Virus record (IMG/VR): IMGVR_UViG_3300022074_000332 | Span: 1 to 26,162 of that record | Direction: 5' to 3' (one strand) | Length of the DNA: 26,162 bases | Origin: a virus | In this document: piece after piece, positions 1,973 through 19,375 of the stretch | Layout: each line of letters begins with the position of its first letter | Position numbering within the stretch: the first letter of the stretch is position 1 | Notes under the pieces: model-generated | What the model saw: only the letters and a program-made list of their open reading frames with translations | Told to the model about the DNA's origin: nothing | Database searches by the model: none | Translations under genes and position numbers: made by a program

Positions 1973-2530
1973 ATGAAAAGAAAAGTATTGATAATTGGAG
2001 CAGGTGGTATTGGGAGTTTCCTTGTGCCCCTTCTAGATAAGACGGGCCTTTACGCCATTACGGTTAGCGACCCCGACACCGTAGAAACGAAGAATTTGAC
2101 TTACCAAAACTTCAACGAGGATGATGTAGGTTCTCTCAAGGTTATGGCCTTGCAGAAAAAACACACGATTAGCCCCAACAAGTTTCCTATCTTGACAGAG
2201 GGACAACTTGCTGGCTACGACCTCGTGGTTTGCTGTGTAGACAATTTGACTGCACGACGCCTTCTCTACCGCTCTCAGGGCTTCCCTTGGCTTGACCTAC
2301 GAGCACAGGGTAGAAACTGCGCCTACATCACCTACAAGGCCGACCCTGCCACTTACGACACTTTGTTGTCCGGTCCTGATGGGAGTTTTTCTTGTCAAGG
2401 GGATGCTTGGGATGGCTCCAACGAGGCTGTCCACTTCATGCAGGTGGCAGTTGCGGGTATCGGTTCTGAATGGATTCAGCGTTGGTTTAACGACGAAGAA
2501 GTGAACGGGTTTGGAACCCTTTTCGTTTGA
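1973..2530 (+). CDS. E1/ThiF/MoeB-like adenylyltransferase-fold protein
   Basis: The family activates the C-terminus of ubiquitin-like proteins or small sulfur carriers by ATP-dependent adenylation. The N-terminus is a Rossmann nucleotide site (IIGAGGIGSF, G9-x-G11-G12-x-G14), followed by the E1 signature D33-x-D35-x-V37-x3-N41-L42-x2-Q45 and the conserved lysine in GSLK. An aspartate follows in CCVDN. The arginine normally found in the NLxRQ motif is tyrosine here (Y44). At 185 residues it is only the core fold, without the catalytic-cysteine and ubiquitin-fold domains of eukaryotic E1s. C115 or the cysteine in FSCQG could act in transfer, but this is unproven. Ten bases downstream lies a JAMM protease, a pairing known from ubiquitin-like systems in bacteria and plasmids (PRTRC, CBASS Cap2/Cap3, Bil). 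Confidence 0.85.
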   Translation: MKRKVLIIGAGGIGSFLVPLLDKTGLYAITVSDPDTVETKNLTYQNFNEDDVGSLKVMALQKKHTISPNKFPILTEGQLAGYDLVVCCVDNLTARRLLYRSQGFPWLDLRAQGRNCAYITYKADPATYDTLLSGPDGSFSCQGDAWDGSNEAVHFMQVAVAGIGSEWIQRWFNDEEVNGFGTLFV

Positions 2531-2539
2531 GGTGAAAAC

Positions 2540-3115
2540 ATGGAAAAGAAAACAACAGGAGAATTGATAGAAGAAATACGAACCAAAAAGTCAGCACATC
2601 AACTTTGGCTTAGAAGTAAAGTTGCCCCTTACATAACAAGCATTTGGGAAGACTTGCTAGAATCAGATGAAGGGTCAGGAAAAGATACCATCCACAGTCT
2701 TGAATTTCATGACGCTATTTGGATGGCTTCAACTTGGCTACTACCCGGTCTTGAAGTCCAAGTTGTGGTTGATGATAATTGGAACCTTTTCATTTCTTCA
2801 GGAACCGCAGGTTTCGTAGGGTTTCCAAAGGAACCCAAAGGATTGAAATTACCGATTCGTTGCTGGATTCATACCCACCCGTTCGGAAGCGCATACTTTT
2901 CCGGCATTGATTGGAACACGGTTTCTGTGTGGGAGCAACACATGGACTGCGCCTATGTCCTAGGTGGAGGCAACCACTACGGTTTCTGGGAACAAGAAAA
3001 CCCCAACGAGTTGACAATCTACCATGAACCCGTTGATGGATTCAAGGATAAATTCAGAGTGCAAGTAAAGAGTGAAAGTCTCAACATACCTGAACCTAAA
3101 GGTGAAATGGAATGA
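2540..3115 (+). CDS. JAB/MPN+ (JAMM) zinc metalloprotease
   Basis: The JAMM signature is exact: H111-T-H113 followed by seven residues, then S121-x2-D124 (HTHPFGSAYFSGID). These residues coordinate zinc in deubiquitinase-type isopeptidases such as Rpn11. A conserved upstream glutamate is expected; E72 in PGLEVQV is the best-placed candidate. The N-terminal 60 residues are helical and charged; the MPN fold probably spans about 65-175. The start has AGGTGA 4 nt upstream. It lies directly behind the E1-like gene, so the pair could conjugate and remove, or process, a ubiquitin-like tail. JAMM proteins also occur in tail modules of some phages, but no tail gene is nearby. The fold is confident; the substrate is unknown. 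Confidence 0.87.
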   Translation: MEKKTTGELIEEIRTKKSAHQLWLRSKVAPYITSIWEDLLESDEGSGKDTIHSLEFHDAIWMASTWLLPGLEVQVVVDDNWNLFISSGTAGFVGFPKEPKGLKLPIRCWIHTHPFGSAYFSGIDWNTVSVWEQHMDCAYVLGGGNHYGFWEQENPNELTIYHEPVDGFKDKFRVQVKSESLNIPEPKGEME

Positions 3116-6451: not shown

Positions 6452-6660
6452 CAGATACTCTTGATTTCCAAGGAAGAATCGTCAGAGACGAAATGAACCA
6501 AATCAAGATTCATCAGGGAACCTACTACGGAAAAGAAGTGGTAGATATTCGTTGGTACAAAGACGACAAGCCAACAAGAAAAGGAATACGACTAAACAAA
6601 ATAGAATTCAATACAATGTTAAAATTATTAAAAGATATGGAGGAATTGAAGAATGAATAA
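6448..6660 (+). CDS. PC4/p15-like ssDNA-binding transcription coactivator
   Basis: A 70-residue protein with the PC4 layout: a beta region with basic residues, then VVDIRWYKDD (compare the family's IDIREYY), a basic turn KPTRKGIRL (compare kkGisL), and a C-terminal amphipathic helix EFNTMLKLLKDMEEL. PC4 domains dimerise, bind single-stranded or melted DNA and assist TFIIB-dependent transcription or replication. Together with the TFB gene it suggests viral control of transcription. The 3' end contains the GGAGGAAT site (6639-6646) of the next gene, which overlaps by 8 nt. This is pattern recognition from a short protein. Confidence 0.7.
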   Translation: MTDTLDFQGRIVRDEMNQIKIHQGTYYGKEVVDIRWYKDDKPTRKGIRLNKIEFNTMLKLLKDMEELKNE

Positions 6661-6790
6661 AAAGCATATTGAAAAGCGAATAAATTATCTTATGAAGAAG
6701 GGACTCATACCTGAAATATATGACCCCTCCCTCAATCCCGCCTCGCCATTTTTCCGGCCTCCGGTAAGCAAAAAGAAAGAGGAGGAATGA
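6653..6790 (+). CDS. Hypothetical 45-aa basic protein
   Basis: ATG at 6653 with GGAGGAAT six bases upstream; TGA at 6788-6790. A lysine-rich N-terminal helix (MNKKHIEKRINYLMKKG) is followed by a proline-rich stretch (PSLNPASPFFRPP) and a KKKEEE end, which encodes the next ribosome site. No family recognised. Support comes from the ribosome site and from the fit between neighbours. Confidence 0.55.
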   Translation: MNKKHIEKRINYLMKKGLIPEIYDPSLNPASPFFRPPVSKKKEEE

Positions 6791-13744: not shown

Positions 13745-14536
13745 ATGATGAATAAAAAAGAAGAAACGGAAATTAAATTGGAAGGCTTTGACGCCATCCT
13801 ACAAGCACAGCAAAAAGAGTTTATTGCACAGAAGAATCATCTTCTTGCAGGAATTGAAGGAGAGGCGAAGACTGGTAAATCCGGACTCGCCATGGATACA
13901 GGATTCAAAACCTTCTACTTAGATTGTGATGTAGGAGCAGTCCCTACTTGGAAAACAAACCACGACTCTACGAATCGGATTGTGATTTACAATCCTAATG
14001 CCAAGGACGAGAACGGAGACTCCGACCCTTACAAAACTCAAGGCAACATTAGAACATTTATTGCTCATGTAGCCAAAGAAATCAAAGACGCACAAGAGCC
14101 TATCCTGTTTGTTTGGGATGGTATAGATTCATGGCTTGACGATTGTACCACTTACATGACAGGTATGGAAAACTCCAGAATGAGGCCCTTTAAACCTCAA
14201 AAACAACAAGAATGGCATCAAAGAAACAACCCGTTCAAGACCGTTGTTGGCGAGGCTATTGACCTACAATGTCATAGGCTTTTCATTACCCATACGAAAG
14301 AACCGTTTAGAGATGAACCTGCAAAGGCTATTTGGAACCGAGTTGATTCCAAACTACACACTGTTATTCGGACGAATCAACGAATGACCATTAAGGGCAT
14401 GCAATACATTGCCACAATCAAAAGTAGCAAATACCATCCTAAAATGGTTGGAAAGAAAATTTCTTTCTGTACCTTCGGAGAGGATGGAGAAGTTAAGTGG
14501 GAAGGTATTTCCGAACTAAAGGAGATGAGAATCTGA
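13745..14536 (+). CDS. RecA-superfamily ATPase (phage Sak4/RadA-like)
   Basis: A single-domain P-loop ATPase. Walker A is G39-E-A-K-T-G-K45-S46, with a second conserved acidic strand TFYLDCD (56-62), and Walker B is ILFVWDGID (120-128, D125). The compact size (263 residues) and the GEAKTGKSGLA loop resemble phage-type RecA-like proteins (Sak4 or the AAA_24 group), and not full cellular RadA, whose N-terminal helix-hairpin-helix domain is missing. It probably acts in strand annealing or recombination during replication, beside the ssDNA-binding protein and PCNA. The start ATG 13745 has AGGTGA 4 nt upstream. The end overlaps the PCNA start. Confidence 0.78.
   Translation: MMNKKEETEIKLEGFDAILQAQQKEFIAQKNHLLAGIEGEAKTGKSGLAMDTGFKTFYLDCDVGAVPTWKTNHDSTNRIVIYNPNAKDENGDSDPYKTQGNIRTFIAHVAKEIKDAQEPILFVWDGIDSWLDDCTTYMTGMENSRMRPFKPQKQQEWHQRNNPFKTVVGEAIDLQCHRLFITHTKEPFRDEPAKAIWNRVDSKLHTVIRTNQRMTIKGMQYIATIKSSKYHPKMVGKKISFCTFGEDGEVKWEGISELKEMRI
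14521..14528 (+). promoter_or_regulatory. Ribosome site that points to a CTG start for PCNA
   Basis: GGAGATGA is followed by 4 nt and then CTG 14533. The same octamer at the same spacing precedes ATG 13525 and ATG 17103. The CTG overlaps the upstream TGA as CTGA. Confidence 0.5.
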
Positions 14537-15324
14537 ATTTCAGAGTAGATGCAAAAGAGTTTAGAGAGGCAGTGGAAGACTGTATGTTGAAGGGTAAATA
14601 CTACAACAAGAGTGGAGACATCGGACAATATATCTATCTTGAAGCGTCAAAAACAAAGGACGACCCTCGCTTCTTTGAGTTGAGAATTTGGAACGCTGAC
14701 ATGTCTACAATTACCATGTGTTCTATTCCAGCAACACCCATTGAAAATACAGATATGTTGCTATTGGACACCAAAATTGTTTTTGATACTGCCAATACGA
14801 ATGGTTTCTTGAAAGGTTTCGGGGATAATATTTCCTTTCGTCTAGAGAGAGGTAGGCTTTTTCTATTCTCAGAGAACACCAATCTATCTATCTCGGTTAT
14901 GACAGAACACCCTTATGAATCGTCCATTGACATGGTGAAGAAAAATAGTCTTCCCATGGCTGGTGAATTTGAAGCAGATAACAAGAGCGAATTCCCTTCT
15001 TTTGGGAAAACCAAGTTTGAAACTGCTTGTCTTCTAGACAACAAAGAATTCGCAACCACTGTTCAAATGGCAGAAAGAATTGGTGCAGGATTCAAATTAG
15101 ATTTCATCTCTAACAGTCTCAATGTTAGCGCAGAGTCTAATTCTCAAAATTTCGCACGAAGCGTTGCGCCTATTGATAACTACGGAGAAGGAAGCATCGT
15201 TGAAATCTCAGCACCAATCTACAAATTCTTCAATGAACCATTTTGGCTTTTCTTGAAGGACGAATCTCCTGTTTTTGCTTGTTCTAATAATCGTCTTTTA
15301 ATCCGTGCGCCTAGAATTAATTGA
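14533..15324 (+). CDS. pcn: DNA polymerase sliding clamp PCNA
   Basis: A homotrimeric processivity ring. The N-terminus NFRVDAKEFREAVED aligns with the family's opening helix (xxAKEFxxxID). Two similar halves follow, with ISFRLERGRLFLFSE and the second-domain DNKEFATTVQMAERIGAGFKLDF. The C-terminus ESPVFACSNNRLLIRAPRI matches the usual PCNA ending, with a Y-x-L-A-P-R-I-type last strand. About 263 residues, slightly above the archaeal 245-250. Start: no ATG is available. CTG 14533 (a CTGA overlap, GGAGATGA 4 nt upstream) gives the normal N-terminus; GTG 14497 adds 12 residues and has a weaker GGAG site. The polymerase gene follows at once. Confidence 0.88.
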   Translation: MNFRVDAKEFREAVEDCMLKGKYYNKSGDIGQYIYLEASKTKDDPRFFELRIWNADMSTITMCSIPATPIENTDMLLLDTKIVFDTANTNGFLKGFGDNISFRLERGRLFLFSENTNLSISVMTEHPYESSIDMVKKNSLPMAGEFEADNKSEFPSFGKTKFETACLLDNKEFATTVQMAERIGAGFKLDFISNSLNVSAESNSQNFARSVAPIDNYGEGSIVEISAPIYKFFNEPFWLFLKDESPVFACSNNRLLIRAPRIN

Positions 15325-15333
15325 GGGTATCAA

Positions 15334-17106
15334 ATGATAATTGCCAATAATGAAAATACAATATACAAATCTTGGAGAAACGAAAAAGGCGAGTTGCTGG
15401 TTAAAACTGATGAACATCGCCCGTACTTTTTCATTCCTGATTCGTATAGAGAAGTAAAAACCTACAGAGTCGGTAAGTTTCTCAAACGGCCCCTTTCCTA
15501 TGAAAAAGGAGAATGGCATAGCATTGATGGGAAGAAGTTGAAGAAGGTTTACTACGAATTGCCTCGGCATGTTGAAGATGCTAAAAAGAAGTTCATTCAT
15601 CCGACCAATGGAGACATGACTTATGAAGCCGATGTATCGGTTGTCAATCGCTACGCTGTGGACAACATTAACGACATGCCAAACTACAAACTCAAGAAAT
15701 TTTATTGGGACATGGAATGGCAACAAAGCGGAGAACATGACGGCAAAGTTACATCTATTGGGCTTTACAATAATCAAACAAAAGTGTTTAACACTTGGGT
15801 TTGGTATCCTGAAGAATCCTTTGAATTAATTGATACTCCTATTGTGGAAGACTATCTATGCACTTTGCAGTACGCTGAAAGCGAAGCAAAAATGCTGTCT
15901 AACTTCATTCAATACCTCACGAAAGAAAAACCTGACATGATGATTGCTTGGTTTGGTCTTAAGTTTGACCTACCTAAACTGTTGAGTCGTTGCATCGCTA
16001 ACAGCATTGACCCAAGAGTGATTTCCCCAATGGGAATCATTGAAGGCGTCAAAGAAGACATGGAAGGGGAGTTGTCTTTTTCTAAACAAAACGGATATTC
16101 TCAAATTTCACAGCCCGTTAAAGGTATGCTCATGCTCAACCTTGATGTTGCTTTTGAGCGACAGTGGAACGATGCACAGAGAGGAACCTTGCCTAGTTTA
16201 GCACTAGACTTCGTATCAAAGACTCTTTTTGGAGAAGGAAAACACATTGAAACGAAGTTTACAGACCCGAACGAATTCTATTCTAGAGCGTGGTTGGAAG
16301 ACAAGTTTTCCTATCTACAATACACAATTACAGATGTAGAATTGCTCCGTAGAATTGACGAAGAGAACCATTGTAGCGAGGCAATCATTTCCTTACAGAG
16401 ATTGCTAAAGGCTCCCTTTGAGTCTTGCTTTTTTGCTTCACACATGGGTTCTATCTACTTCATGCGTAATGCTTCTTGGAAATGTAAGACAGGAGTTAGA
16501 CTGAAAACAAAGAAGTGTGAAGCATGTGGGTTTGAGAATCCCAAAGATAAACAATTGAAGAATTGTAAAAAGTGTGGCGCTTCTCTTTCGTATTCAGGCG
16601 CTATGATTTACCATCCTTTGAAAGAAGGAGGAACCAACGGATTGCATCTGAATGTAGCGGCCTTTGACTTTGCTGGCCTCTATCCTTCAATGATAGTGGC
16701 CCGGAACATCAGTTTTGAAACCGTCAGCGAAACACCCACCTTGTTTGGGGCAGATTTGAACACACCTCAAAATCTCCAGCCCGTGCCCGAGGGCTACACA
16801 GAGGACATGGTTTACTTCAAGATGGATGAGTTGGGACTACTCCCTCGCTCCATTCTTGAATTGAAATCGCTGAGGAACGACTACAAAGCCGAAATGAGGA
16901 AGGCCCGAGAGAACGGTTTGGAGGATGATGTCGTGAAGTGGAACAACAACCAAATGGCCGTGAAGAGGCTCATGGCTTCTTTCTATGGCATCCTCGCCTT
17001 CAAGGGCTTCGGATGGGCAGATTCAAAACTAGCGGCTAGCATAACAGCAAGTGCTAGAGAGGCTATTCGTGAAGCGGCTAGAGTCGCTAAGGAGATGAAA
17101 GTATGA
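15334..17106 (+). CDS. polB: DNA polymerase B, N-terminal part (exonuclease, palm motifs A and B)
   Basis: The larger piece of a split family B polymerase, 590 residues. The proofreading domain keeps its metal ligands: D126-M-E128, D212 (GLKFDLP, with the usual asparagine of this motif missing) and Y330-x3-D334. The polymerase domain has motif A D445-F-A-G-L-Y-P-S and motif B K544-R-L-M-A-S-F-Y-G552, where alanine replaces the asparagine of KxxxNSxYG. Before motif A sits an unusual zinc-ribbon insert (C395-x2-C398, C411-x2-C414). It stops at EMKV just before motif C, which is encoded 477 bases downstream. Start: GAGGG upstream of ATG 15334. Confidence 0.93.
   Translation: MIIANNENTIYKSWRNEKGELLVKTDEHRPYFFIPDSYREVKTYRVGKFLKRPLSYEKGEWHSIDGKKLKKVYYELPRHVEDAKKKFIHPTNGDMTYEADVSVVNRYAVDNINDMPNYKLKKFYWDMEWQQSGEHDGKVTSIGLYNNQTKVFNTWVWYPEESFELIDTPIVEDYLCTLQYAESEAKMLSNFIQYLTKEKPDMMIAWFGLKFDLPKLLSRCIANSIDPRVISPMGIIEGVKEDMEGELSFSKQNGYSQISQPVKGMLMLNLDVAFERQWNDAQRGTLPSLALDFVSKTLFGEGKHIETKFTDPNEFYSRAWLEDKFSYLQYTITDVELLRRIDEENHCSEAIISLQRLLKAPFESCFFASHMGSIYFMRNASWKCKTGVRLKTKKCEACGFENPKDKQLKNCKKCGASLSYSGAMIYHPLKEGGTNGLHLNVAAFDFAGLYPSMIVARNISFETVSETPTLFGADLNTPQNLQPVPEGYTEDMVYFKMDELGLLPRSILELKSLRNDYKAEMRKARENGLEDDVVKWNNNQMAVKRLMASFYGILAFKGFGWADSKLAASITASAREAIREAARVAKEMKV
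17096..17103 (+). repeat. Direct repeat TGAAAGTA, left copy at polymerase split
   Basis: TGAAAGTA at the end of the first polymerase gene recurs at 17584-17591, at the start of the second. Both copies encode M-K-V in the polymerase frame, so removing one copy and the DNA between restores a continuous polymerase reading frame. Short, so chance cannot be excluded. Confidence 0.5.
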
Positions 17107-17240
17107 AATGTATAGTATGCAATAAAAAGGAATCCGAGGTATGTTATATTGGTCGTTCATTGTGTTGGGAATGCCATGATAAAGGCAGATATGGGTCATT
17201 AAAACTACAACAAAAAAGAATCAGTGAGGGAACAGAATGA
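17103..17240 (+). CDS. Zinc-ribbon mini-protein, 45 aa, inside the polymerase gap
   Basis: ATG 17103 overlaps the polymerase stop as ATGA and has GGAGATGA (17091-17098) exactly 4 nt upstream. Residues C3-x2-C6 and C21-x2-C24 (MKCIVCNKK and SLCWECHD) make a zinc ribbon; the rest is basic. It ends in an ATGA overlap with the next small gene. Not recognised as a known family, but similar in kind to other zinc ribbons in this window. Confidence 0.65.
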   Translation: MKCIVCNKKESEVCYIGRSLCWECHDKGRYGSLKLQQKRISEGTE

Positions 17241-17419
17241 AATGCAGTATTTGTGGAAATGAAATTGATAAGCACTATCACAACGGAAAAATGTATTGGG
17301 ACAGCGGGCATAATGCCCAACCAGTGAATTCAGGTAGATGCTGTGATACCTGTAATTCAGAAGTGGTTATTCCCCGTAGGTTGACTGATATGTTGTCGGG
17401 TAGGAGGAATGAAGAATGA
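17237..17419 (+). CDS. Phage-type zinc-finger protein, 60 aa
   Basis: C3-x2-C6 is followed by a histidine-rich loop (DKHYHNG), then GHNAQPVNSGRCCDTCNSEVVIPRRL. The CCDxCN...VIP-R-L wording is familiar from small zinc-finger proteins of many marine phages, function unknown. It is joined by 4-nt ATGA overlaps on both sides, so the three genes in the gap form one coupled unit. Its 3' end holds the GGAGGAAT site of the following gene. Confidence 0.75.
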   Translation: MKCSICGNEIDKHYHNGKMYWDSGHNAQPVNSGRCCDTCNSEVVIPRRLTDMLSGRRNEE

Positions 17420-17580
17420 ATTTTCAAAAATTTAGCGAATGGTATGCTGAAAACTTTTTGGAAGAAACTTTTTACTTTTTGATGTTTTTAACATCATTAA
17501 TTGTTCTTATTTTCATAAGGGAGATAAAGAAAAAACCCACATCAATTTATGATTTCTTAAACCAAACTTTGGAGGAATAG
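17416..17580 (+). CDS. Single-pass membrane mini-protein, 54 aa
   Basis: GGAGGAAT (17403-17410) precedes ATG 17416. An aromatic, acidic N-terminus is followed by one membrane span (FYFLMFLTSLIVLIFI, about residues 19-34), a basic stop-transfer stretch REIKKK, and a short tail ending in LEE. The last codons and stop form GGAGGAATAG, the ribosome site of the second polymerase gene. The product is unknown; the gene sits in the polymerase gap. Confidence 0.65.
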   Translation: MNFQKFSEWYAENFLEETFYFLMFLTSLIVLIFIREIKKKPTSIYDFLNQTLEE

Positions 17581-17582
17581 TT

Positions 17583-18479
17583 GTGAAAGTAGTTTACGGA
17601 CATACTGATTCTATTTATGTTCAGATTGATTCTGTAGAAAAAGCACAAGAAGCAGTTAAGAATATTAATGAAGAAGTCAGAAAGAAGTTTCCGAATGTGT
17701 TAGGTCTTGAAGAACATCCAGTAGTCCTAGAATTTGAGAAATTTTACTCTTCTCTTGGAGTAGGAAATACGAAAAATAGAAATGCTGGTCTTGTTTCTTG
17801 GCTGGATGGTATTTGGCTTGAAGAACCAAAGTTTGCTATGACAGGATTCTCAGCAAAGAAAATTTCCGAAACTAAATTCGCTAAAGGAATACAACAAGAA
17901 GTATTGAAAATGTGGGTTGAGCAAAAATCATTTGATGAAATTAATACACACCTGAGAGAAAAATATCAGGAAGCATTGGACGGTAATGTGGTCTTTGAAA
18001 GTCTTATCAAAAGAAGAAGGTTTGACAAAGACAAGTTTCTTCTCAAGTGCAAATGCAAGAAACAAGTTTCGGCACTCCGTTTAAACAACGGAGAGGATTT
18101 GATTCAAGGTCTGTATTGTGCAAGGTGTGGTGAACCCCGGACTTCTTTTACAACCAAAGAAGGAAAGAAGCCAACTTACTCAGAAGGGAACGCCGCTATC
18201 ATGTTTAGTATCCAAAACGGGCTACTTGCAGAAGACATTGACTCATATGTTTTCCTCAAGGTTAAACCTGTAGGTTTCTACACTCACCCGATTACGGGTA
18301 AGAAGATTGAAGGAAACTATATCGCTAGGAGAACCTACGACGAATTACGAGAATATATTCCAGACTACGAACACTACGCAGAGCAGGTTTTGAAGAAAGC
18401 CAAGCCTGTGTATGAAGCGATGGGCTGGGATTTATTACAAATAAAAAACAAAAAACAAGCATTGGAGGAATGGTTTTGA
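17583..18479 (+). CDS. polB: DNA polymerase B, C-terminal part (motif C and thumb)
   Basis: The smaller piece, 298 residues, starts at GTG 17583 (GGAGGAAT 4 nt upstream). It opens directly with motif C: KVVYGHTDSIYV, with H7 where most family B enzymes have the first aspartate of YGDTDS; the key catalytic D9 is kept. The palm's last strands and thumb follow (KISETKFAKG, ...). A second zinc ribbon (C156, C158, C179, C182) is embedded in the thumb region. The C-terminus KKQALEEWF fits a PCNA-interacting peptide (K-x-x-L-x-x-W-F), as expected of a replicative polymerase. It must assemble with the upstream piece to be active, as in the two-gene polymerase of Methanothermobacter. Confidence 0.93.
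   Translation: MKVVYGHTDSIYVQIDSVEKAQEAVKNINEEVRKKFPNVLGLEEHPVVLEFEKFYSSLGVGNTKNRNAGLVSWLDGIWLEEPKFAMTGFSAKKISETKFAKGIQQEVLKMWVEQKSFDEINTHLREKYQEALDGNVVFESLIKRRRFDKDKFLLKCKCKKQVSALRLNNGEDLIQGLYCARCGEPRTSFTTKEGKKPTYSEGNAAIMFSIQNGLLAEDIDSYVFLKVKPVGFYTHPITGKKIEGNYIARRTYDELREYIPDYEHYAEQVLKKAKPVYEAMGWDLLQIKNKKQALEEWF
17584..17591 (+). repeat. Direct repeat TGAAAGTA, right copy at polymerase split
   Basis: Second copy of the 8-bp repeat, beginning inside the GTG start codon of the second polymerase gene. See the left copy at 17096-17103. Confidence 0.5.
18464..18471 (+). promoter_or_regulatory. Ribosome site that selects a TTG start for the Cas4-like gene
   Basis: GGAGGAAT ends 4 nt before TTG 18476, which overlaps the polymerase stop as TTGA. 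The in-frame ATG at 18470 overlaps the octamer itself and so cannot be used with it. Confidence 0.65.
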
Positions 18480-19375
18480 ATAACGAAGAAAAATACGAAG
18501 CAGAAATAAAGAGCATGGACGAATACACCTATCAGTGGTTGCCTGAAAACTACGAGGACCCGAGTGAGCCGATTTTGAAAATCACAAAATCTTCTCTTGG
18601 TTCATTCTTGTGGTGTCCCAAAAAATACGAATTTTCGTATGTGGAGCGTAGGCCCATTGACCAAACAGAAGCGATGAGAAAAGGAACCATTATGCATAAC
18701 GCACGAGAGGATTTCTTTAACGCATTTGACATCAAGAAAGCAGAGAACATGACCACCGACGAAGTAATTGATTACTGTTCATCTCTTTTCCCACTTGATG
18801 AATATTTTGATGAGTATTCCCACATGGCGGTGTTTGAAGCACAAAGATTTGTTGATGCACGAAGAGAAGACAAACTAGACGAGTTTTTGCCGGTTTGCAA
18901 CGAAGGAAAATTTGATTGCGAAATTATTATTGAAGCCAACACCGACCCTAAGTTTCCCTTGCAACGCGACTATAAGATTCACCTTCAGGGAATCATTGAC
19001 CGAATCTTTCAGGAAAAATCTGGATACATACCTATGGAGTTTAAAACTGGTGCATGGAAAGACCATAAGAAAACTTCTATGAGAAAAGAAATGGCTTTTT
19101 ACCAAGTCATGATTGAGAATTGTTCGCCAGCGGTTTTAGAAAAGAATGGCCTACAGGAAGGCATTCCTGTATCTCATTGGGCTTGGTATTACCCAATCTC
19201 AAATCACTTCTTTGTTGAGAAGGTCGTCAAGGCTTCAAAGACTGCTGTGTTTAGGTCAATTGCTAGATTGATTCATGCTTACGAAAACAAAGAGTTTCCA
19301 GTAAAATTCTATGCTCCTACTTGTTCTCATTGCAGTTTCTTCCCTATTTGCGATGAAGAGACTTGGTTAATGTGA
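18476..19375 (+). CDS. PD-(D/E)XK nuclease with Fe-S cluster (Cas4/RecB-like)
   Basis: A 299-residue RecB-type nuclease. N-terminal SSLGSFLWCPKKYEFSYV carries C47, followed by KGTIMHNAREDFF with the family's histidine. Then come the active-site D175 (LQGIIDRIF) and E188-F-K190 (PMEFKTG), and a Q-containing helix (EMAFYQVMI). Three C-terminal cysteines C283-x2-C286-x5-C292 complete, with C47, the four-cysteine pattern of the 4Fe-4S cluster in Cas4, AddB and Dna2 nucleases. There is no CRISPR array or Cas1/Cas2 here, so a role in DNA end processing, recombination or packaging is likelier than CRISPR adaptation. The TTG start is chosen from the ribosome site. Confidence 0.87.
   Translation: MNNEEKYEAEIKSMDEYTYQWLPENYEDPSEPILKITKSSLGSFLWCPKKYEFSYVERRPIDQTEAMRKGTIMHNAREDFFNAFDIKKAENMTTDEVIDYCSSLFPLDEYFDEYSHMAVFEAQRFVDARREDKLDEFLPVCNEGKFDCEIIIEANTDPKFPLQRDYKIHLQGIIDRIFQEKSGYIPMEFKTGAWKDHKKTSMRKEMAFYQVMIENCSPAVLEKNGLQEGIPVSHWAWYYPISNHFFVEKVVKASKTAVFRSIARLIHAYENKEFPVKFYAPTCSHCSFFPICDEETWLM

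Follow-up and report, generated by a model that had tools for sequence, protein, structure and literature searches.

Two-gene PolB DNA polymerases are known from several systems. The closest is the Poseidoniales virus YSH_150918 (Aoguangviridae, Magrovirales), in whose genome-map legend two genes are already labelled PolB-NTD and PolB-CTD (PMC10768690). This genome resembles the locus described here in having two PolB genes and similar neighbours, including GroEL/GroES, a sliding clamp, and HMG-CoA lyase; the text compared here does not mention where the break lies, what fills the gap, whether the split is universal, any tail copies, or a hotspot. In T4-like phages (Aeromonas 25 and 44RR, Acinetobacter Ac42 and KARL-1), a viral PolB is likewise divided into two genes, gp43A and gp43B, which are separated by a homing endonuclease gene or by several small ORFs, as in the magrovirus gaps. 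The gp43 halves of Aeromonas phage 25 co-purify and are active (PMC2988022). However, gp43 belongs to another polymerase lineage (about 25% identity to the magrovirus PolB) and is broken in the fingers, between motif A and motif B, whereas the magrovirus break lies after motif B and before motif C. The archaeal-type PolB3 of Methanobacteriales also consists of two polypeptides but is cellular (PMC4104785), and the passage of that source citing Kelman (1999) attributes its split to faulty intein excision. The split-intein PolBs of Nanoarchaeum equitans and an Aeromonas phage are also made in two parts, yet these are joined by protein trans-splicing, and an intein is absent from 97 magrovirus gap proteins. 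The locus is related to, and distinct from, earlier split PolBs, as the preliminary description had proposed.

T4-like phages also carry free-standing HNH or GIY-YIG homing endonucleases beside or inside replication genes, such as mobE, inserted into nrdA of Aeh1, and the seg genes (PMC2988022). These share an overlapping stop/start coupling with the magrovirus inserts (PMC2988022). In magroviruses, by contrast, the 3′ end of an inserted gene often duplicates that of its host gene, and the joint also gathers cargo without endonucleases. Whereas the PolB-NTD/CTD label in a magrovirus and split PolBs elsewhere are known, the fixed break, the tail copies, and the hotspot appear to be new.

The window analysed here is a 26-kb contig (26,162 nt) that, judging from its genes, probably derives from a magrovirus-like virus, a virus of marine archaea. 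Its Pfam matches comprise a chaperonin, TFB (slightly under the cut-off), ligase, clamp loader, and HMG-CoA lyase in addition to the two PolB genes, polB-N and polB-C, and this set agrees with the published Magrovirales (Aoguangviridae-like) set (PMC10768690). The putative sliding clamp gene stops a few nucleotides ahead of polB-N, likewise in relatives. polB-N also matches PHROG 262, DNA polymerase (E 4.9e-62). The thumb/palm part of polB-C includes a cysteine-pair insert. The gap between the two genes holds three tiny genes and no HNH or GIY-YIG endonuclease gene. As previously described, these genes are translationally coupled, by ATGA overlaps and by a GGAGG sequence ahead of polB-C. They had been read as two zinc ribbons and one membrane protein. 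The CxxC pairs and the hydrophobic stretch are present, but none of the three proteins matched a Pfam family above the cut-off, so that both labels denote a sequence pattern. No relative of the first gap gene was found among the other gaps.

Table 1. Features at and around the polB-N/polB-C joint (positions in the window)
Feature	Position	Strand	Remarks
Putative sliding clamp, upstream neighbour	14497..15324	+	No Pfam match
polB-N (590 aa): N-terminal domain, 3′-5′ exonuclease, motifs A and B	15334..17106	+	PF03104 and PF00136 above cut-off
polB-N tail module AAGGAGATGAAAGTATGA, encoding KEMKV-stop	17089..17106	+	SD and ATGA start/stop overlap for next gene
First TGAAAGTA copy	17096..17103	+	Sequence
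Gap gene 1 (45 aa), two CxxC-type pairs	17103..17240	+	ATGA-coupled to polB-N
Gap gene 2 (60 aa), cysteine pairs (zinc-ribbon-like)	17237..17419	+	ATGA-coupled; kept in L003, dN/dS 0.09
Gap gene 3 (54 aa), single hydrophobic segment	17416..17580	+	ATGA-coupled; kept in L003 and L009, dN/dS 0.14-0.18
GGAGG ribosome-binding site of polB-C	17571..17575	+	7 nt ahead of GTG
polB-C (298 aa): motif C strand-turn-strand, remaining palm, thumb	17583..18479	+	PF00136 above cut-off
Second TGAAAGTA copy	17584..17591	+	Sequence; 480 nt after first
Motif C, YGHTDS	17595..17612	+	First Asp of usual YGDTDS is His (226/226 loci)
PD-(D/E)XK (Cas4/Exo5-like) nuclease, downstream neighbour	18470..19375	+	PF12705, E 3e-16; overlaps polB-C

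In the window, polB-N ends in KEMKV-TGA, and polB-C starts at a GTG codon, its protein beginning (M)KVVYGHTDS. This joint and the two TGAAAGTA copies flanking the gap were confirmed, and removal of one copy together with 480 nt restores a single frame (...GAG ATG AAA GTA GTT TAC...). The first ORF covers positions 42-206 of the PF00136 profile and the second positions 219-373; therefore, almost no polymerase sequence is missing at the joint. The reading of one PolB fissioned immediately before motif C was right. Both window halves are from one polymerase lineage, and the foreseen objection that they might come from different ones did not arise. Relatives were retrieved as the best 80 loci per query in IMG/VR scans and a genome scan. 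The 157 distinct junctions cover two magrovirus clades (48-97% identity), and in all of them the break lies in the same turn before motif C. Among these relatives, polB-N ends in KEMKV, KEMKI, KELEV, KEMN, KVMEL, or KVREL, and polB-C nearly always starts with MKVVYGHTDS. Other cassettes at the site were found, as anticipated; no unsplit magrovirus PolB was present among the matches listed in these scans (best 80 loci per query), where the uninterrupted gene occurred only in distant outgroups (haloviral and cyanophage). On these comparisons, the split is ancient and clade-wide and not peculiar to the genome of the window.

Among the relatives, the length of the polB-N/polB-C gap ranges from -4 to 2554 nt (quartiles 701/1112/1556 nt), and its contents vary freely and are unrelated between genomes. 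At the flanking joints, the quartiles are 4/7/9 nt at one, and the median is -5 nt at the other. The gap is thus an insertion hotspot. A gene for an HNH or GIY-YIG endonuclease was observed in 19 of 102 gaps, mostly directly after polB-N, and 14 of these genes begin at most 8 nt from the polB-N stop. None of the 57 gaps of the second clade contains a recognised endonuclease; therefore, the split may have arisen without endonucleases. Five pairs of empty and occupied joints (L190/L191, L192/L171, L178/L198, L097/L098, and L122/L110) have flanks about 89-99.7% identical and are nearly clean. In the first pair, L190 carries an HNH gene and L191 has the empty joint. Within 4 kb, the polB-N stop is by far the most frequent point at which similarity between loci ends. 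This excess is in part simply differing gap content.

In the relatives, the last ~18 nt of polB-N, a sequence like AAGGAGATGAAAGTATGA, are often copied at the 3′ end of inserted genes. We counted 24 such tail copies in 117 kb of gaps and 11 in 746 kb outside them. Any coupled gene needs an SD sequence (AAGGAG) and an ATGA overlap, and the tails could in principle be convergent coupling sequences and not copies of polB-N. We regard this as unlikely: the strict form of the tail occurs 20 times in gaps and never in the 746 kb of neighbouring sequence, and the final 26 nt of the GIY-YIG gene in L192 are identical to the polB-N end of its empty relative L171. Nevertheless, part of the tail copy serves as a ribosome site, and selection as well as descent could have shaped it. 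The first TGAAAGTA copy falls within this 18-nt tail with its SD and ATGA. A conserved target-site duplication was rejected for TGAAAGTA, as relatives do not keep the repeat. Nor does the repeat simply mark a single insertion, since its first copy is part of a tail repeatedly copied onto later inserts in other genomes. Its match to polB-C could be left over from the founding event or be coincidental.

The preliminary description explained the locus by the entry of a cassette, in this virus lineage, into a polymerase that was still intact, the cassette then becoming woven into the operon. The restored frame and the tight coupling of the array agree with such an insertion. As a recent event, however, it is very improbable, and we consider it refuted: all relatives share one break position and have unrelated genes in the gap, and in L246 and L247 the two halves meet through an ATGA overlap with zero insert. 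Because these loci lack any insert, the two-gene form persists without any cassette; the fission and the coupled array stand, but it is not the cassette that maintains the split. As an ancestral event, insertion is possible. The sources are metagenome contigs, but the chance that the split is an assembly or sequencing artefact is negligible, as many contigs from independent samples have the same structure, among them L003, a separate contig 95-97% identical to the window with the same break. It is also scarcely credible that one full-length chain is made because the gap is spliced out as an intron, removed through a split intein, or bypassed by programmed frameshifting, although PolB genes elsewhere among viruses and archaea do contain inteins and introns. 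The polB-N frame closes with a stop codon of its own, and polB-C has its own start (ATG in 149 of 157) and a preceding SD-like sequence (172 of 226 loci, 28.5 expected). A self-splicing intron was rejected because Rfam searches of the window and of 8 relatives found nothing, and an intein because none of the 97 gap proteins has an intein domain. For a programmed frameshift, the gap lengths do not keep the frame, which varies freely among relatives, and inspection of the insert-free L246 joint revealed no slippery heptamer.

A further alternative is that the two ORFs together have ceased to act as a polymerase, with a host or other polymerase being used and the halves otherwise employed, for example as an exonuclease only. 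Motif C does not have both Asp residues of YxDTDS, the first being His and the second retained at all 226 loci, and the KxY motif after it, KKRY in haloviruses, is KNRN in magroviruses with its tyrosine gone. Because of these two substitutions, polymerase activity is not a given. In contrast, the exonuclease, motif A (DFAGLYPS), motif B (KRLMASFYG), and the second Asp of motif C are conserved in aligned members. Strong purifying selection acts on both halves alike: in comparisons with L003 and L004, dN/dS was 0.07-0.09 for polB-N and 0.04-0.06 for polB-C. An AlphaFold2 model of L003 read through N-gap-C (pLDDT 82.8, pTM 0.78) was obtained with a 93-row alignment including read-through rows. 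It has a disordered gap segment and a confident motif C hairpin, and archaeal PolBs match it best in the PDB, along the entire chain (TM ≤0.79, by target). As the model was built from a read-through chain, the closeness of the halves was imposed, whereas the fold was not. An earlier fold from 63 mostly unpaired rows had a poor palm (pLDDT 68), and a 149-row alignment put motif C in the wrong place and was not used for folding. Both halves together are predicted to fold as one archaeal-type PolB, and we consider the loss of polymerase function improbable.

On balance, we think it probable that one ancient fission gave rise to a two-polypeptide PolB, whose joint later became a landing site for genes. 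A single fission would have predated the last common ancestor of the magroviruses sampled here, cutting the gene in the turn that links the final palm helix of the N part to the motif C strand. Its products, presumably co-transcribed as one operon, would be made one after the other by start/stop-coupled translation. The halves probably assemble non-covalently into one B-family polymerase, probably active, to which one chain contributes motifs A and B and the other motif C. HNH, GIY-YIG, and small cargo genes would then have entered exactly at the polB-N 3′ end, with endonucleases possibly cutting the joint and driving insertions. The 3′ end of an inserted gene would carry the polB-N tail, with its SD and stop/start overlap; therefore, ribosomes would still have been passed along from gene to gene until they reached polB-C. 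The window would be one version of this array, with three tiny genes and no endonuclease.

A replicative polymerase cut between motifs B and C, and retained in that form in every sampled magrovirus, is a natural test of two-chain active-site assembly. The many empty and occupied joints provide a field-scale record of how genes enter an essential enzyme without halting its synthesis, the inserted gene bringing with it the signal by which the host gene itself hands over translation. It becomes directly testable how gene fissions come to be tolerated and permanent, and whether homing endonucleases drive them. We advance more tentatively, and with some doubt, the idea that the polB-N 3′ end is a dual-use element (coding tail and ribosome hand-over) picked up by mobile genes, that the joint both collects genes and swaps polymerase halves (candidates L032 and L059/L068), and that the split is kept because it is modular.

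Discordance between the N and C halves was uninformative as a general statistic because the within-N control varies too, and extreme pairs alone are cited here. L032, with an L023-type N half and an L094-type C half, and L059/L068, all of which may be assembly chimeras, look chimeric between the two halves.

The window spans a virus contig in full (26,162 bases), which encodes a TFB-like zinc protein, a ThiF family protein, a chaperonin, an ATP-dependent DNA ligase, a clamp-loader subunit, a PD-(D/E)XK nuclease and an HMG-CoA-lyase-like gene. This is the kind of set given for the Aoguangviridae (order Magrovirales), which infect marine Poseidoniales archaea (PMC10768690). Re-examination of the sequence confirmed all coordinates of the preliminary description, in which the PolB gene is split just before motif C (into the ORFs polB-N and polB-C) with three coupled small genes in the gap. 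The three gap ORFs are linked by ATGA overlaps, and polB-C starts with GTG, with GGAGG seven bases upstream.

Features of the window and of related polB loci (L numbers)
Feature	Locus	Position	Size (nt)	Remark
polB-N	window	15334-17106		exonuclease domain, motifs A and B
polB-C	window	17583-18479		begins at motif C strand
Motif C (YGHTDS)	window	17595-17612		
ThiF/E1-like gene, then protein with HTHPFGSAYFSGID stretch	window	1973-3115		PF00899 (ThiF/E1-like gene)
Insert-free joint	L246	~6640-6680		
Apparent polB-C start	L288	~6821		ATC, non-standard codon
DNA methylase within polB gap	L098	8466-9239		PF01555, E 6.8e-54
Pair with vs without gene	L190/L191		592	HNH
Pair with vs without gene	L192/L171		600	GIY-YIG
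Pair with vs without gene	L178/L198		588	GIY-YIG
Pair with vs without gene	L122/L110		236	
Pair with vs without gene	L097/L098		748	

Either polB half matched hundreds of sequences in IMG/VR, and the best of these were retrieved together with one further relative from a bacterial genome bin. Among these best relatives, the break occupies an identical position in all loci with both ends (157 distinct junctions), polB-C starting with ATG in 149 and with GTG or TTG in 7. Alignment to unsplit PolBs places the break in the turn that leads from the final helix ahead of motif C into the motif C strand, in agreement with the preliminary description. An uninterrupted gene was found only in distant outgroups (a cyanophage-like phage and haloarchaeal tailed viruses), which lie far from the magrovirus PolBs; a tree of the latter, with 111 non-redundant sequences, contains split members only. 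Judging from these sequences, the split is old and general among magroviruses. One magrovirus contig, NZMJ01000151.1 (L203), was binned within a Maricaulis (Alphaproteobacteria) genome and is probably a misbinned virus.

Split PolBs are known in Methanobacteriales (PMC4104785) and in T4-like phages, where the halves from phage 25 co-purify and are active (PMC2988022). However, the split gp43 of T4-like phages is broken elsewhere, before motif B. For one magrovirus, published work (PMC10768690) already marks the two PolB genes as NTD and CTD. The literature searched yielded no account of a break fixed ahead of motif C throughout magroviruses, of an insert-free joint, or of the tail copies and empty/occupied pairs described below, all of which appear new relative to that literature.

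In two loci, L246 and L247, the polB halves directly adjoin via ATGA with no insert, and in their sister loci a lone 28-codon gene lies in the gap; because of this, the two-gene state is not dependent on any cassette. Genes of 28 codons are the only gap content of L217 and L235-L240, one zinc-ribbon-like and one hydrophobic/basic, and are ATGA-coupled at both ends in several loci.

Genes insert at the polB joint. Gap length there ranges from -4 to 2554 nt (first-clade quartiles 701/1112/1556); at the flanking joints of the same loci, the quartiles between the clamp gene and polB-N are 4/7/9 nt and the median between polB-C and the nuclease gene is -5 nt. Genes in the gap are short, share the polB strand and mostly lie end to end. 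Across 102 gaps, a conserved hydrophobic peptide of 43 residues (e.g. MMMDKTNELLEELLNMIAKSNRILMMVNIVNIVTIITIVTVIV) occurs in 80, a family of ~67 residues, HTH-like in appearance, in 75, and a coiled-coil-like family in 70. Cysteine-pair proteins occur in 62 gaps, and one gap protein has a weak acetyltransferase match. HNH or GIY-YIG endonuclease genes, some HNH members being recognised by motif alone, are present in 19 of the 102, and 14 of the 19 begin no more than 8 nt from the polB-N stop. Neither type was recognised among 57 gaps from the second clade.

At their 3' ends, endonuclease genes and some other gap genes repeat the final 18 nt of polB-N (AAGGAGATGAAAGTATGA in the window). Counts of this motif in its loose form are 24 in 117 kb of gap versus 11 in 746 kb outside, and in its strict form 20 versus 0, although the loci overlap and the counts are non-independent. 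Near-identical pairs with and without a gene show precise insertion, with flanks ~89-99.7% identical. The gene inserted in L192 finishes with 26 nt that match the polB-N end of the empty relative exactly, whereas the polB-N of L192 itself ends slightly differently. The simplest reading is that the inserting gene would enter within the polB-N 3' end and acquire its 3' end from the old tail, while polB-N would gain an equivalent tail. Because the tail holds an SD sequence and the ATGA overlap, translation would still be handed on. By analogy with known homing systems, endonuclease cleavage may drive these insertions.

In 324 alignments between loci, similarity breaks off at the polB-N stop, whereas no other 50-nt bin within 4 kb has more than 24 such ends; part of this excess is due to differing gap content. 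Two cases look like half-swaps from their sequences. The polB-N of L032 is 99% identical to that of L023 and its polB-C 98% identical to that of L094 (55 and 63% in the other comparisons), and L059 and L068 are 98.8% identical over 7.6 kb ending at the polB-N stop and ~69% identical beyond it. The 184.7-kb contig of L068 (IMGVR 3300021958_000021) carries a second, different magrovirus polB locus, L191, so two genomes may have been joined in assembly and this apparent swap may be an assembly chimera.

The two halves are predicted to remain one enzyme. Nei-Gojobori dN/dS estimates are ~0.03-0.11 for both, and 172 of 226 loci have an SD-like sequence ahead of polB-C, compared with 28.5 expected from random positions. 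In L003, which is 95-97% identical to the window, the halves happen to share one frame, which allowed a read-through chain of the locus to be folded. The model (mean pLDDT 82.8, pTM 0.78), in which that chain itself tethers the two parts, has a confident motif C hairpin, while residues 590-701 (the gap segment) are disordered, and with Foldseek the whole chain aligns to archaeal PolB structures (TM up to 0.79 by target length).

Motif C reads YGHTDS in place of YGDTDS in the window and all 226 relatives, and the KKRY motif, also in polB-C, is KNRN in magrovirus PolB. Both changes appear fixed in magroviruses, and the metal site may therefore be unusual. Elsewhere in the window, the HTHPFGSAYFSGID stretch resembles a JAMM protease motif in a protein with no Pfam match, which possibly forms a viral ubiquitin-like pathway with the ThiF/E1-like gene.
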